Part shown: one piece after another, positions 50,211 through 63,581 of the stretch | Layout of the letters: the number at the start of each line of letters is the position of its first letter | How positions within the stretch are numbered: position 1 is the first letter of the stretch | Assembly: GCA_037074765.1 (NCBI GenBank) | Contig: JBAMDO010000166.1 | Coordinates: 62,001 to 126,000 of the forward strand | DNA: 64,000 nucleotides | Origin: Mansonella perstans | Taxonomy: Eukaryota; Nematoda; Chromadorea; Rhabditida; Onchocercidae | Direction of reading: 5' to 3' | Translations under genes and position numbers: made by a program | The notes under the pieces: generated by a model | The model's input: only the letters and a program-made list of their open reading frames with translations | What the model was told of the DNA's origin: nothing | Database searches by the model: none

Positions 50211-53037
50211 ATGAGAGTAATATCTAATTCAATTATACACACAACACTAATCCTGTTTGTTGGTATCAATAATGCTATATCATTGTTGTGTTATACGGTA
50301 CATTGGGACACATATTCGAAATTTACGGAGGGTGTTGTTAAATGCAAAGATGATGAAGAATTTTGTGCATCTTTGGTACTTCGTTTTTTATTGCAAAATT
50401 TCTAATTATTAAGTAAATGTAACATTAAGTATGCGATAAAATTTACTGACGTTACTCTTAGCCTAAACGAATTAAATTCATAATTTGTGAAAATTGTGTT
50501 AACAAGTATATTTTTGAAAATTTGAAAAAAAAACACTAAAACTTTGAATGTGAAGTTTTTTTTGCTTCTTTTCTTTTTTACCATACTTATAAGTTTATTA
50601 TTTTTGCAGTATGATCGATGTGCTGAAAGATGGTATCTTCGAGCAATCCCATTGGATAAAAAATGTTATTCTACAAATGAGGTAAAATTGATCATAATAA
50701 TTTTTCAAATTTTGGATATTATCGAGTATTACAAGAATCAGAAAAATGAATCAACAAGTGATATTTTAATATCCAATATTTCATGTAGGTACAAAAAAGT
50801 ATCTTAAAATTTACACTTGAGACTTGAAATTGTTTTCTACAGTATGATCATCAGCTTTTTTATAAAGTTAAAAGTACAATTAATTTGCAATTAAGTTTAT
50901 GGTAATTATGTAATTTTAGTTGAGAAGTCGAACGAACTGCAGTATAGAAGTATTCAAACAGGGTTGTTTCATAGATCCGAGACACGATAATTATGTAAGA
51001 AGTAGGCGAAAGCTACCAGTTTGCATTTGCAAAGGCAATTACTGTAATACGCAACAAACAATTGAAAATATATGGTTGGAGCAAAATTTTTACGAATTTC
51101 ATGATCCTGTAGATTGTCATTCTAAATTGAACAAAGAAGATACAATTACGAAAACATCAATGCTCAGTACTGTAGCACTGCCTGAAACGAAAACCACAAT
51201 CGCAGTATCAGAATCAAATCAACAAACAACAACAAATGCTGCAGAAATGCTGAAATCAAGTACAGAAGCAAAAAATGACACAGAAGCCACAGAACTAAAT
51301 AAAGGAGCAACGAATGCTAAAGAAACAACGGAATCAAGTACCGAAACAATGATAAATGTTACGGGATTACTGGAATTTAGTCCGCGATTGGAAGAATTAA
51401 ATGCTAATTTAATGATGTATGTTACAGAATCGCCGGAACCAAGAACAGCAACAATAACAAGTGCTACGAATAGGGCAGAATCAAGTGGAGAGACAAATAC
51501 AAATGCTGAAGAAATCACGGAATTAAGTGTTAAAATAAAAAAACATGCTACAAAATTGCCGGAAGTAAGCACAGCAACAATAACAAATGCTGCGAAATGG
51601 CCAGAATCAGGTAAAGAAACAAATACAAACGCAAAAGAAACAGCGGAATCAAATGCTAAAACAACAATAAATGCTGCAGAATTGCCGGAAGTAAGCACAG
51701 CAACAATAACAAATACTGCGAAAAGGGCAGAATTAAGTGGAGAGACAACAACAAGTGCTAAAGAAACAGCGGAAGCAAATGCTAAAACAATAATACATGC
51801 TACTGAATTGCCGGAAGTAAGCACAGCAACAATAACAAATACTGCGAAAAGGGCAGAATCAAGTGGAGGGACAACAACAAGTGCGAGAGAAACAACGGAA
51901 TCAAGTACCGAAACAATGATAAATGTTACGGGATTGCTGGAAGTAAGTCCACGATTGGAAGTAATAATAACAAATGCTACGAAAAGGGCAGAATTAAGTG
52001 GAGAAACAACAACAAGGGCTAAAGAAACAACGGAATCAAGTGTTAAAACAATAATAAATGCTACAGAATTGCCGGAAGTAAGCACAGCAACAGTAACAAA
52101 TGCTACGAAAAGGGCAGAATTAAGTGGAGAAACAACAACAAGGGCTAAAGAAACAACGGAATCAAGTGCTAAAACAATAATAAATGCTACAGAATTGCCG
52201 GAAGTAAGCACAGCAACAGTAACAAATGCTATGAAAAGGGCAGAATTAAGTGGAAAGACAACAACAAGTGCTAAAGAAACAGCGGAATCAAATGCTAAAA
52301 CAATAATACATGCTACTGAATTGTCGGAAGTAAGCACAGCAACAATAACAAATACTGCGAAAAGGGCAGAATCAAGTGGAGAGACAACAACAAGTGCGAG
52401 AGAAACAACGGAATCAAGTACCGAAACAATGATAAATGTTACGGGATTGCTGGAAGTAAGTCCACGATTGGAAGTAATAATAACAAATGCTACGAAAAGG
52501 GCAGAATTAAGTGGAGAAACAACAACAAGGGCTAAAGAAACAACGGAATCAAGTGTTAAAACAATAATAAATGCTACAGAATTGCCGGAAGTAAGCACAG
52601 CAACAATAACAAATACTGCGAAAAGGGCAGAATCAAGTGGAGAGACAACAACAAGTGCGAGAGAAACAACGGAATCAAGTACCGAAACAATGATAAATGT
52701 TACGGGATTGCTGGAAGTAAGTCCGCGATTGGAAGTAATAATAACAAATGCTACGAAAAGGGCAAAATTAAGTGGAGAAACAACAACAAGGGCTAAAGAA
52801 ACAACGGAATCAAGTGTTAAAACAATAATATTTGCTACAGAATTGCCGGAAGTAAGCACAGCAGCAGCAACAAGTGCTACGAAAAGGGCAGAATCAAGTG
52901 GAGAGACAACAACAAGTGCGAGAGAAACAACGGAATCAAGTGTTAAAACAATAACTGCTAAGAACCTGGAAGTTATTCTATTAACGAAATCAAATAAAGA
53001 AACAATAAACGCAAATGATCGCCTGATGCGTGTTTGA
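50211..53037 (+). CDS. Secreted three-finger domain fused to a mucin-like repeat tail
   Basis: Exons are 50211-50375, 50610-50681 and 50920-53037, all phase 0, giving 784 residues. A signal peptide (TTLILFVGINNAIS) leads to a cysteine-rich domain through residue 145 that ends LPVCICKGNYCN, with a further Cys 24 residues later, parallel to the paralogue at 46420. From about residue 146 the protein has no Cys and is Thr/Ser/Glu/Ala/Lys-rich, built from 42- and 45-residue repeats with many N-x-T sequons (INATELP, INVTGLL, TNATKR) and Thr clusters suited to O-glycosylation. No membrane segment lies before TGA 53035-53037. An alternative 3' exon with one is possible at 53999-54175. Such domain-plus-stalk proteins are typical of surface or secreted glycoproteins; its role is unknown. 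The exon 1 donor (GTACTT) is weak but phase and the paralogue support it. Confidence 0.85.
51475..52954 (+). repeat. Coding tandem repeat array, 126/135-bp units with a 261-bp higher-order unit
   Basis: Eleven full units starting AESSGETTTS or AELSGETTTR occur in one frame: eight of 42 and three of 45 residues, then a truncated twelfth from 52888. The 45-residue type carries INVTGLLEVSPRLEVIITN. A 42+45 pair makes a 261-bp higher-order unit, with near-identical starts at 52381 and 52642. Central units are almost identical at DNA level while the first two are diverged, the usual sign of unequal exchange or conversion. The reverse strand is open for 546 codons as a by-product of repeated codons. 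Confidence 0.95.
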
Positions 53038-58347: not shown

Positions 58348-58671
58348 ACTTTGAAAATTATTACACCGTTTGTAGAAAGCAATTGAAGAAATATGTGAAA
58401 TAAAGTATTTGAATTAATTTGATTTCAAATAAATTCAGAAACAAACAATATCAAAATATCAAAGTAAACTGAAAAACAAAATATTATTCATGACAATTAT
58501 CCAAAAACACTATATCGGGTAGATCGTATAAAATTTAATTCCATGTTTAGAGTATTTGACGTTAAACGTGAATAGAACACAAATATTTCAATGAGTCGCA
58601 TCACGGTTGATAATTTAATTATAATTGACAATTAATAATTTAATTACATCGAACTGTAAAATCATTGCTAT
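58348..58671. other. SLC19 5' flank up to the retroelement junction
   Basis: Upstream sequence of the transporter gene. TTTTCAAAG ends one base before its ATG on the minus strand and could serve as a trans-splice acceptor. The retroelement begins about 320 bp from this ATG in the opposite orientation, so little ancestral promoter DNA remains between them. Confidence 0.55.
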
Positions 58672-59944
58672 TTGTGCTTTACAGGTACGACCTGTAAACG
58701 GTGGAAAGCCAAACCGTTCAAACTACCGGCAGTGCCAAATTTGCTTGAAGCCCGAGTAAAAAGATCTAGACCATTCGAACAAGTAGGTCTAGATTACTTG
58801 GGATCAGTCTCAGTCAAATCTACTACCGGTAGGGTAGAGAGATGGATCGCTCTCTTCACATGTTTTACTACGACAGCTGTACATCTAGAAATAGCAGAGG
58901 ATTTATCCGCCGAAAATTTCTTGCATGTCCTAAGAGGATTTGTGGCTCGACGAGGATATCCAAAATCAGTCTTAAGTGACAACGCTAATCAATTTCAACT
59001 CGTCTTTAAGACAATAATGGAAGAAAGCTCCAACTTCCTAGCAGAACAAGGTATGTGTTGGAAAAATACTATACCAAAAGCACCTTGGGATGGTGGAATA
59101 TACGAACGAATCATTGGACTCACAAAACAAACTTTAAGACGGGCTGTTGGAAGAAAACTTCTAAAAGAAGGAGAACTGATAACCTTAATGGTAGAGACAG
59201 AGGGAATACTTAATATCCGTCCACTGACCTACGTTAACTTCGATGACTACAGAGTCATACGTCCAATTGACTTTATTTCACCTAAGTCTTCACTCGAAAT
59301 ACCAATCAATTTTGACAATGGGCAAGAAGAATACATTGCTTATCCATTAAAAATAAAGGATAAACTTATTAAATATTAGACCAATACTCTTAACACATTA
59401 GAGTTTTTTGGAAATTGTGGAAAGATACCTTATGAGTCTAAGAGAATGCACACAAAAGGAATTAGTTTCTCCCCGACAGACAGAAAAACGAAGACCACGT
59501 GAGAATGAAATCGTTTTATTAATGGAACCCGAAGTACCTCGCGGTATAGGAAAATTATCAAAAATAATTAAAATCAACAGAGGATGTGATGGAAGTATCA
59601 GGAGTGCCACAATCCAAATGCCTAATGGGAAATAACTTAATCGTTCAATTAACATGCTATGTCCCATGGAAATAGATGCTCCCAACGATATGGAAGAGAA
59701 AATAGATAAAAAATGGGATGAACCTGAACAACCTATCGCTAGTCGGACTAGAAGAGCTTCAAGACCAATAAATGTTTTGTGTCCACTGGAAGTTGATGAT
59801 GTATCCAACTCAAGAAGTCAATCACCAGTGTTAGAGATAACAGTGCATGAAAGCAAGGAAGAAAAATCCATTGCGCGACGAATTAGAAGTGCCACAAGAA
59901 ATCGTGCAATACAAGCAACAGCCGTATCAAACGATGGAATGTGA
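58672..59944 (+). mobile_element. BEL/Pao retrotransposon remnant: integrase and C-terminal end, 5' truncated and frameshifted
   Basis: 58672-59379 encodes an integrase core beginning CKRWKAKPFKLPAVPNLLEA, with catalytic-type Asp in VGLDYLGSV, Asp in LSDNANQF and Glu in GGIYERIIGL. These are the D,D,E positions of Pao integrases, whose usual second motif is DNGTNF. A stop at 59377-59379 and a shift to another frame at about 59408 precede a DUF5641-like segment (NEIVLLMEPEVPRGIGKLSK, then RGCDGSIRSA). A further frame from 59654 holds PMEIDAP and INVLCPLEVD, like the Pao tail NLLYPLEI. Gag, protease and reverse transcriptase are absent. The element is dead. Confidence 0.88.
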
Positions 59945-60036
59945 TAAAAGATCAACAACAGCAACACCGAGCGATAAAAAAGTTGGAACCACCCTCAATC
60001 CACACCCTAGCTTCTTCTCTCTCCTCCCTTTGGGAG

Positions 60037-60738
60037 TGTCGCGAATTTCATAACGCGAAACTTCCAATAGATCAATAAACCAAATTGTAAAATAAATGTT
60101 AATGTCTTTACGAGCCATCTAATTAATTTCATAATGTTTAGATTTATTTCCTATATCTTTGTTGTAGTCTAACCTCACATCCAATGCTGTCAAACCTCTT
60201 CCCTATCATAAACTGGCAAAGAAACAGCTGTAGCAATATCTTACTAAACAAAGCCATTGTGTAACTATGTCATAAAATTCTTTGTTTGATGATTATGCTT
60301 ACATGCAATGTATTGTGCTTTTTAAATCAAGCTTATCTTTACAAAGGATTTTGCTTTTTTATGAGCTTCAGTTTCTTTTAACTCAGCTCATTAAGACTAG
60401 CTTTTCTCCGCCTACAATACTCATTTACTATTATTTAAACTATCAATCATCACACCACTACCATTTTTGAGTCTACTCACATCAACGACTACTGGTTCTG
60501 TTCTCCTCATTATCACCATTTTTATTATATTAATTTTTCTATTAAATATGTGTTGTATATAATTATCACGTAACTCACGTTGTCCAATTCTTCTAATAAA
60601 AGTTTAATTACCCAAGTTTGAGGTGTTCCCGTAACTAAATCCAATCACACAAACTTAATCCAAAACACAATTAATTCAACCCAACACAACAATCCCTGAT
60701 CAAAACGTTGGGAAATATTGGCTAACAGTTGACCTCTT
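60037..60738 (+). mobile_element. LTR-like sequence downstream of the BEL/Pao remnant
   Basis: Begins TGTCGCGAATTTC and could end ...CTCTTACA, the TG...CA form of an LTR. Composition is richer in C than the flanks, CAATAAACC near 60072 could be a polyadenylation signal, and position directly after the Pao C-terminus fits a 3' LTR of about 700 bp. There is no second LTR in the window to confirm the borders, so the ends are provisional. Confidence 0.5.
60601..60622 (+). other. SL1 spliced-leader sequence (21 of 22 matches) within LTR-like DNA
   Basis: 60603-60622 is TTTAATTACCCAAGTTTGAG, the last 20 bases of the nematode SL1 leader. The preceding two bases are AG instead of GG. GT follows directly, as at the donor of SL RNA genes, but the downstream bases (GTGTTCCCG) do not resemble SL RNA and no AATTTTGG-type Sm site follows. 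It is therefore not an intact SL RNA gene. It may be a pseudogene, a retroposed trans-spliced transcript, or a leader captured by the retroelement. Confidence 0.85.
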
Positions 60739-63581
60739 ACAAGAAAATCACGATATGTGCTGTTTTCAATTTTATTCTCAATGAAATGATTTTTTGTTGC
60801 TTTCTTTGATTGCTAAAAAATAGAAATGAAAAATAAAATAATTGAAAAATTCAAATTTCGACAAATTTTATCAGAAGTATGCAAAATGTTTCAGTTAACT
60901 GATATTTTGTTCGATGCCATAAATTGATTGGAAATGCGAAATTTTTTTAAAAATCCACTGACTATTATATTATTGATATACATTGTTTTCAAAAATTTCG
61001 AAAAAAAATTAACGAAACTCTGACTATTATATTACTGACGTAGACAAGTTTAATAGGAATACATAAATTTAAAAATTACATATTTTTGATTACATATTTA
61101 TGGTGAATAAAATTGCATATTTCCGGTGATTAAAATAATAATTGAAAGCAAAATTTTATAAAAATTAATAAATGACAGTTAAAATTACTGTATGTGTAGG
61201 TTTCTATATATACAAAGTTTCAAACAAACATCAATATGACGCAGCATTAAAATTTATGTTAGACATAATAATAGAATTGGAATAAAGTATAAAATTTTTC
61301 AAATTATGAAATGAATATTTTTAATTGGTGTGCATTAGTTACTGCTATCCAACCGATCATCATTATGAATGTAACATTATTTGTTTTGGTTTTCGTATAA
61401 ACTGATGCCTACTGAGGGAAGTTATAAACAGAAAAAAAAAATGAAAAATCAAAAATACTTGTAAAGACAGGAGCATGCAAAATACGGAGAACCATTTAAC
61501 TATTTATAGGCAAGTGCAAAAATATGTTTAATTTTTGAAAAGAAGAGGTTCAATGGCTTGAAATTTTCGAGAAATCCATAAAATAGTAAAGACATGTAAA
61601 GTACGCATAGCCATTCAATTGTTTGCTTGCACATGCAAAAATTAGTTTATTTTTTGAAGAGAAATGGTTCACTGGCTTGGAGAAGTTTAACATTTGAAAA
61701 AAAAAATTTTATGGAGAAATCCATAAAATATAATGGCATTCAAAATGCGTACAATCAATTATTTGCACGCTATTTATGCTATTTGCTTTCATACAAATTA
61801 GTGTTTGTTGAATAAAGTAATGAACAAATAAAAATGAAATGAGTACAAAAGTCAAAAATCAATCAATAGTTTAGTTATCTTAAATAAATGCATCGACATA
61901 AAGATATCATTTAAGTATTCGCAGGAAATTCCTTATCAAATTCACAACAATTACAAAACAAAACAATTGATATCAAAACATCAGCAACATTTTATATCCT
62001 AAAAATAATTTAGCACTAAATTCTCTGTTATCATTCCTCATTTTGAATGAAAGAAACGAGGAGAGAAACAGGGCGAGAGTAAAAAGTAATGCTTCGCAAA
62101 AATATGCTGTCTATTAAATTTGAATTGAAAAAAATTATTAAACAAAGTTTACTAGTACGTTGAAAATTTACTTAATCAAAAGCTCCCATTTCATAGTTCT
62201 TACCGATACTTTAATTTCATTTAAGCATTTATGAATAGTTTTCTCTTCTTTTTTCGCATTTTTATTGTTAATAATTTTATTTACATAAATTAATTTTTTT
62301 TACTATAAAACTTTCATAATGTTTGAAATTTCATTTTAAATTGAAAATTGGTTATTTAGGAAATTAATTATAGTTTTTACTGTTTGTATAATTCATTCGG
62401 ATAAGAAATGATTTGTATTTTTCTTACTTTAACTTGCATAGCATTTTCATTTAATATTTAAATGGACGAAAATTTTTATTTTTTGATTAAAGTGAGAAGT
62501 AACATTAAAAGAACTTCAAATTCTAGAAAATTTTAACAGAAAAGTTCATAGCATAGCATTTATATCACCGATTTCTAGCAATGTTTATTTCCTTTATATA
62601 TCAGTGAAATGAGTTGAAATGATAATAAAATATAGTTGGATGCATAAGTAGAAAGCTTTAAAGCAACTGAAAAAAATTAGAAAAAAGACATGCACTTAAA
62701 ATACATGCAACAACAATAAACAACTGAAGAAAAGCGCAATACGCAAGAATAGTGAAGGAAAAAAGAAAGAAAGACTAAAATGCATTCCGAAAAATGTCTA
62801 AGTGAAGCTAATAAAAAGCATGCAATCAATAGAAAACAAAAGTCAAAAATACTTGTTAAAATTAATTATGCCAAAATTTCAAAGAACCGAAAACTAACAA
62901 TTGAAACCTCAAAAATGAAACAAAACATGCAAGCTAAAAAAATAAAAAGGAATTCAGTGGTTGAAATTATCCGAAATAGTTCATGATTTAGAAAATAGAG
63001 ACAAGAAATTTAAATTCTTAAGAAATTCATAAATTAAATTAAAAATAATGAAGATCGATGCAAAAGTTCAGGAAGATAAAAAAATCATTAAAAAAATAGC
63101 AGTTTAAAAAACAAAAATTTTAAAACTCAAAACGCTCAATGGTTTAAAAATTAGAAAACTGGAAGGAAAAGTTAAAAAAATAATAAATATTCAAAAATTT
63201 GACAACTTAAGAGATTCGCAAAAAAAAGAAGGCACAAGAATTTAAAAAGAAATTCTTGGCTCAAAACAACAAACTCAAAAAAAAATGAATTGGATGTGTT
63301 CAAACGCTTAAAAAATAAAAACGAAAGTGCAAATAACAAAAATTCTTCACCAAACACTATAACCAATTACACAAAAGTTAATAAAACTAAAAGGTAGTAA
63401 CAAAAAAAAAAAAACAAAAAACAACAAAACAGGCGAGAAAAAATCCCAAAATTAGTTTAAAAGATAAAAACCAGCTTATCTATAATATTTAATCCTTTAA
63501 TCGGGAATTAAAAATAATAAAAAATTACGCAAAAAAATATATGAAAAGAAAAAGTAAGAGGAATAATACAAAAAAACCTAC
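60739..63581. other. Intergenic with decayed transporter exons, otherwise no gene seen
   Basis: Apart from the SLC19 exon-1 copies at 61441-61760 this stretch is AT-rich. From about 62640 to 63560 the plus strand becomes strongly A-rich, yielding Lys-rich chance frames (for example 62780-62986) with no domain or splice support. Confidence 0.55.
61441..61760 (-). pseudogene. Decayed tandem copies of SLC19 exon 1
   Basis: On the minus strand 61511-61610 encodes WLCVLYMSLLFYGFLENFKP, recognisably the SLC19 exon 1 segment WTVFCISLVLYGLLKDFKP. A second copy at about 61650-61757 retains VRILNAIIFYGFL, and a third at about 61441-61500 only WFSVFCMLLSL. All lack the NFTREQ end, a clear donor and downstream exons. 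They represent past local duplications of the transporter's 5' part, now separated from it by the retroelement. Confidence 0.7.

Follow-up and report, generated by a model that had tools for sequence, protein, structure and literature searches.

Most nematode mRNAs receive the SL1 spliced leader, whereas the R sequence of a retroelement is normally private to that element. In retroviruses with a short R, first strand transfer uses that R, and the AATAAA poly(A) signal lies just upstream of it, in U3; the R is the virus's own, whereas the R-like SL1 proposed here is a leader of host mRNAs. Filarial BEL/Pao elements (Belpaoviridae) share with the elements discussed here Pao protease and integrase homology, LTRs, a PBS-like TGGTGCC and 5-bp target duplications, and the latter appear to differ from them in having a host leader as an R-like border sequence. 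To our knowledge, descriptions of the BEL/Pao family do not include such a border.

The one direct forerunner that we found is Foster et al. 2020 (PMC7181701), the available text of which reports 120 integral SL1s in Brugia malayi, 60 of them within 1 kb of PAO, and interprets them as leaders that became attached to PAO transcripts and were integrated together with these. The kind of element, the host group and the leader are the same as in the present case; in the text available, SL1 is described as 'flanking' PAO, whereas here it lies within the LTR behind a poly(A) signal and is associated with U3/U5 reassortment, with host-mRNA junctions and with a putative role in strand transfer. For another nematode LTR element with SL1 on its RNA, Cer1 of C. 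elegans (PMC3315495), the available sections report a spliced mRNA with and without trans-spliced SL1 and an 8-kb gag-pol mRNA that is apparently not SL1-spliced; they describe no SL1 in the LTR, whereas here SL1 is part of the LTR DNA. The accessible part of a paper on Echinococcus TRIM elements indicates that an LTR transcript seems to compete for a leader acceptor. Within the available text of the open-licence PMC literature, we found no report of SL1 as an LTR border or strand-transfer site, of U3/U5 exchange or of the host junctions.

The window, that is, the whole stretch of 64,000 nucleotides that was analysed, corresponds to C166:62001-126000 of the 75.7-Mb Mansonella perstans genome and carries SL1 on its forward strand at 60601..60622, with 21 of 22 positions identical and an A for the first G as the sole mismatch. 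This is the only match with three or fewer mismatches in the window, and none of 100 dinucleotide-preserving shuffles contained one, in agreement with the initial annotation, which had judged a chance match negligible. Upstream, at 58660..59397 (forward strand), lies a remnant of the end of pol, the catalytic part of a BEL/Pao integrase region, identified by homology to filarial proteins. Its closest relative is an integrase protein of Loa loa (about 75-76% identity over 58690-59397), followed by proteins of Onchocerca, Brugia, Acanthocheilonema, Wuchereria and Dirofilaria, and the named entries among its 62 homologues are mostly filarial. The filarial proteins that it matches have precomputed PF18701/PF17921/PF00665 annotations; a Pfam search of the fragment itself at 0.001 gave no match, and the Pao protease part (PF05380) is absent from the window. 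A frame-shifted pol end with a DUF5641-like region follows at 59420..59764 (forward strand), located by tblastn with two proteins that have a precomputed PF18701 annotation, P0001 and P0007.

The LTR itself (TGTCGCG...CACGATA) occupies 60037..60755 of the forward strand, the end being approximate, as judged from the sequence and from LTR copies; its first letters are TGTCGCGAA at 60037 and its last letters ATCACGATA at about 60755, and it ends in CACGATA where its relatives have CACGACA. The span of 60037-60738 proposed initially is therefore right at its start and slightly short at its end. Because the polypurine-tract-like TTTGGGAG (60029..60036, forward strand) adjoins the LTR start, we take this LTR to be the 3' one; TGGGAG stands directly before 8 of 44 LTR starts. 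A second LTR was not found within the window, making this a single-LTR copy. Inside the LTR, on the same strand, a TATA-box-like TATAWA (60556..60561) lies 45 nt upstream of SL1, an AATAAA poly(A) signal (60595..60600) adjoins SL1, and a U5 of type U5_0, which clustering places at 27 sites behind 6 U3 types, extends over 60623..60755. SL1, at 60601..60622, forms the U3/U5 joint and is our candidate strand-transfer sequence. By its Pao-type pol and by the LTR ends and target duplications of its family, the element is classified from sequence as a BEL/Pao LTR retrotransposon.

Elements of this kind can be followed throughout the genome. Their LTRs end in TGTCG...CGACA, that is, they are of the TG...CA type, the 3' end motif was located in 89 of 120 clusters, and the PBS-like TGGTGCC lies shortly 3' of several 5' LTRs. 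An exact 5-bp target duplication is present at 14 of the 35 sites at which both LTR ends were located, and where none is present, the site may in some cases be an LTR of a full element or its ends may have mutated. The PF05380 profile has 106 matches genome-wide, 62 of which (contigs C1-C429, with manual exclusion of small fragments of one place) were compared with 99 of the 149 exact AATAAA-SL1 sites described below. An exact site lies within 7 kb of the Pao protease on the same strand in 18 of the 62 and on the opposite strand in one, and some of these proximities may be due to a neighbouring element; among the 21 longest protease matches, 14 have a same-strand site within 7 kb.

The window LTR has at least 49 matches in the genome; of 288 candidates, 40 were scored to obtain this number. 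Selection by similarity to the window LTR, with SL1 disregarded, gave 30 LTR loci (L009-L038), and 29 of them have SL1 at the identical place with 0-2 mismatches; the early claim that SL1 lies inside a BEL/Pao LTR is right. The exception, L021, retains only the last 12 nt of SL1 (CCCAAGTTTGAG) at the site, after AATAAAA. In an alignment of U3 and SL1 from window-type LTRs (31 rows, the window sequence being included twice), the mean pairwise difference was 0.082 for SL1 and 0.103 for U3; extra conservation of SL1 was sought in this similarity-picked set and not found, with 137 of 542 windows of the alignment equally good. Divergence in this LTR family looks, from the alignment, like neutral decay after insertion, and SL1 conservation therefore neither supports nor refutes a function.

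Genome-wide, 482 sites match SL1 with at most two mismatches, and the reversed control matches none. At least 69 of these sites are SL RNA genes: contig C518 has at least 67 SL1-GTAATT sites, spaced mostly 307 bp apart, and the two others counted are on C181 and, linked to 5S, on C191. An exact AATAAA followed after 0-3 nt by SL1 occurs at 149 sites (control 0), with G as the next base in 89 and another base in 60. We read 126 distinct SL1 clusters and three further sites, entering sites with identical flanks once and leaving out one incomplete site; 40 of the 149 exact sites are outside this reading. With the SL RNA loci set aside, the clusters that were read look like LTRs of the BEL/Pao group. 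AATAAA ends 0-3 nt upstream of SL1 at 107 of 121 LTR sites, and at 26 of 30 sites from the loci picked by similarity.

These 121 sites, which are the 126 rows minus four SL RNA loci and one locus (L051) with too short a stretch after SL1, were clustered twice, once by the 86 bp upstream of the first SL1 and once by the 50 bp downstream of the last SL1. The result was 16 U3-side types and 25 U5-side types in 41 combinations, with a cycle rank of 4; the counts include U5_19 (an rpl-6 junction), U5_24 (the truncated L135) and U3_12 (L140, a spacer between SL1 units). Many of the clustered sites had been chosen for an exact SL1, so that the evidence lies in the switching and not in the identity of SL1. 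Where two sites have the same U3 and unlike U5s, they match at 0.73 immediately upstream of SL1 and at 0.37 immediately downstream, against a background of 0.32. Where the U5 is the same and the U3s are unlike, the match is 0.80 immediately downstream of SL1, and upstream it is at the background of unlike pairs, with 0.61 over the AATAAA stretch and 0.30 beyond -20. Because the clustering segments had been defined at SL1, switching was also compared at neighbouring segments elsewhere: in 118 sites, the fraction of alike pairs that switch is 0.72 across SL1, compared with 0.05 and 0.15 within U3; within U5 it is 0.34, a value that is affected by short U5s running into flanking DNA. U5_9 was found behind four U3 types, and at two of its loci (L034 and L071) it follows unlike U3s within an exact 5-bp duplication, which means that these mosaics were made before integration. 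Near the joint, unlike U3s have little in common except AATAAA and SL1. As judged from these comparisons, SL1 is the joint of U3 and U5 in these LTRs.

At two of the about 125 distinct LTR sites read, SL1 is followed by host sequence. At the first (L059, on the minus strand of C35), U3-SL1 continues into GTGCAAAACAATG... and a reading frame for ribosomal protein eL6 (PF03868, E 4.6e-10, with eL6 structures also matched). In the parental rpl-6 gene (L153, C539), TTTTTGTAG lies immediately upstream of the junction base, forming the trans-splice acceptor, and the best match to SL1 in the 3.2 kb searched there, 1.5 kb to each side, has seven mismatches; likewise, no LTR start TGTCGCGAA was found within 1.5 kb of the gene. 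The first parental intron (318 bp, GTATGG...TTTTAG) is absent from L059, which contains rpl-6 exon 1 (4 differences in 232) and 18 bases of exon 2 before passing into Pao pol; the last 36 bases queried at the pol joint occur at 11 further places in the genome, and we take the continuation, from its translation, to be reverse transcriptase. A full U3-SL1-U5 LTR (L058) forms the far end of the element, and the two U3-SL1 copies are identical at 374 of 383 positions in an alignment that stops where SL1 ends. An intact ACCAC target duplication flanks the whole rpl-6-bearing element. The simplest reading of this arrangement is that a processed, trans-spliced rpl-6 mRNA was joined via SL1 to a U3 during reverse transcription, and that the product was integrated as one unit.

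The second host junction lies at C535:691863, where U3-SL1 continues into AGAAAGGCG... from a nap-1-like gene. A genomic exon on C181 that is identical over the 88 bases compared has TTGCTTTCAG directly upstream, with a TTTCAG acceptor, and at L162 it is CTGCTTGCAG that precedes. Two further copies, L160 (C529) and L161 (C190), have coding sequence where the intron stands, at one boundary, and are possibly host retrocopies; L161 matches the NAP family (PF00956, E 3.1e-10). SL1 at C535 thus looks, in this comparison, as if it sits on the acceptor of an internal exon, which would be unusual for trans-splicing. About 100 bp past the junction, PBS-U5-SL1-U3 follows in inverted orientation, so that this is a palindromic product. 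The initial suggestion that a trans-spliced transcript was reverse transcribed into the window locus is thus right in part, in that RNAs tipped with SL1 do appear to have been reverse transcribed at the rpl-6 and nap-1-like junctions.

The fixed place of SL1 after AATAAA, the reassortment of U3 and U5 at SL1 and the fact that both host junctions fall on true splice acceptors lead us to propose that SL1 in these LTRs is probably an R-like sequence of host origin on the border between U3 and U5, laid down by reverse transcription of trans-spliced RNA and now serving as a docking site for minus-strand transfer. A cDNA that has reached the SL1 tip of its template, be this a host mRNA or an element RNA that was trans-spliced, would anneal to the SL1 of a U3-AATAAA-SL1 on an element RNA and then be extended into U3; the joining would thus occur by SL1-SL1 annealing at the 3' end of an RNA, during reverse transcription, and the element RNAs would themselves be trans-spliced, this being the source of their SL1 tip. 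With polyadenylation expected about 10-20 nt downstream of AATAAA, hence within or at the end of SL1, SL1 would come last on the element RNA in the manner of an R. Tandem SL1 arrays inside LTRs, with 10 units at L099 (C178:12555-13433), 9 at L106 (C215:93057-93905) and a period of about 60 bp, would fit slippage in R. The DNA suggests that, through the SL1 which they share, elements have swapped ends among themselves and become joined to copies of host mRNAs. If true, elements would have a direct route for the capture of host mRNAs, U5 and promoter halves could be swapped among unrelated families, and an element would survive trans-splicing, which otherwise removes a retroelement's own R.

How strictly the elements depend on SL1 is a separate matter. 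TATA-like boxes mostly stand 44-62 or 146-267 nt ahead of SL1, with none within 300 nt at some sites (up to 12 sites per type); judging by these positions, transcription from the LTR itself probably starts elsewhere than at SL1, and SL1 would fall within a conventional R, which extends from the start to the poly(A) site. Untrimmed transcripts would accordingly begin before SL1 and have a longer R; after trans-splicing, which would take that part away, SL1 would be the sole R. In addition, an element on C61 combines a 2452-aa Pao frame with inverted LTRs that are 99.8% identical (L154:3623-4163 and L155:993-1537), and its family has a decayed SL1 site, GGTTCTATTACCCAATTCAAC; near-identical LTRs and a large frame together with a decayed SL1 indicate that an exact SL1 is not indispensable. 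The TATA positions and this young family argue against strict dependence. We advance only tentatively, and consider rather doubtful, the stronger form of the proposal, in which the elements outsource their 5' R altogether: trans-splicing would add SL1, the 3' end of the LTR would stop at AATAAA-SL1 and R would be the spliced leader, making any SL1-tipped mRNA a legal donor for first-strand transfer and SL1 one exchange port for all families.

Three other explanations of the SL1 sites have to be weighed, and one of them, a decayed SL RNA gene into or beside which an element inserted, draws on the 22-nt identity alone. The Rfam model of SL1 RNA (RF00198) recovers true genes at four loci (L075, L141, L145 and L151; five genes, 86-122 bits) and at E 0.01 finds no match in the window LTR (L009) or in L059, L135 and L106, in line with the initial remark that SL1 in the window lacks the rest of an SL RNA. 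As SL1 also recurs at the same LTR position in copy after copy, a pseudogene is refuted and has a negligible probability. It is also highly improbable that SL1 acts as a cis splice donor to downstream acceptors and so provides SL1-like 5' leaders without trans-splicing. Cis-splicing from SL1 would yield the same junctions as trans-splicing, the nap-1-like junction falls at the acceptor of an apparent internal exon, and SL1 is followed by GT in the window and at 54 of the 121 LTR sites. Yet AT follows it at 56, a strong donor (GTRAG or GTAA) at one of the 121, the second LTR at each of the two host-junction loci reads SL1-ATTGAG, without a donor, and the region around rpl-6 lacks an LTR start, as described above. 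The GT noted initially is thus real and uninformative as a cue, and of the idea that the LTR acquired a leader, the retention of a leader by the LTRs stands, and a role as a donor is not supported.

A less remote, still unlikely explanation is a single capture of SL1 by an ancestral LTR, in which it has since been carried along as a passenger, the mosaics having arisen by ordinary copy-choice between co-packaged element RNAs where identity is high, namely at SL1. The lack of extra conservation in the window's LTR family and the decayed site in the C61 family both agree with a passenger, and a switch at SL1 would also be expected from copy-choice within a longer R. That account alone, however, fails to explain how two host sequences came to be joined to U3 via SL1, and, as unlike U3s share so little near the joint beyond AATAAA and SL1, SL1 would even then be the working homology. 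We therefore favour the docking site for strand transfer.

Several further candidates and loci deserve mention. At L135, SL1 adjoins a point within a U5; a splice at AG was considered there and set aside as weak, compatible with the data and no proof, the two bases before the point being AG in 6 of 12 relatives, AA or GA in the other 6, and AG also in L004. L020 and L053 were rejected as a third host capture and look like further U5 types: four partial matches to L020 elsewhere stop at the LTR end, and L053 has five more matches elsewhere. Opposite-strand AATAAA-SL1 pairs, 180-520 bp apart, occur at C505:8539/8722, C535:691863/692081 and C143:21731/22246; those on C535 and C505 look, from their arrangement, like head-to-head LTR palindromes, which perhaps come from hairpins or template switching. 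At L061 (C40:188509-189523), two LTR SL1s lie 986 bp apart with a tandem array of about 50 bp in between.

Among the SL RNA genes, the copies on C518:7301-28002 (L145, L151) form an SL1 RNA array of 307-bp units, and 5S was not found in the two stretches read there, unlike at the 5S-linked C191 copy (L075). The gene on C181 (L141, C181:393106-393527) is isolated, scores 86 bits, has AT after SL1 and is possibly decayed or solitary. In the window, a 705-aa open frame at 50920-53037 (forward strand) has threonine-rich repeats with spacings of 42 and 126 nt and perhaps encodes a repetitive secreted or surface protein.
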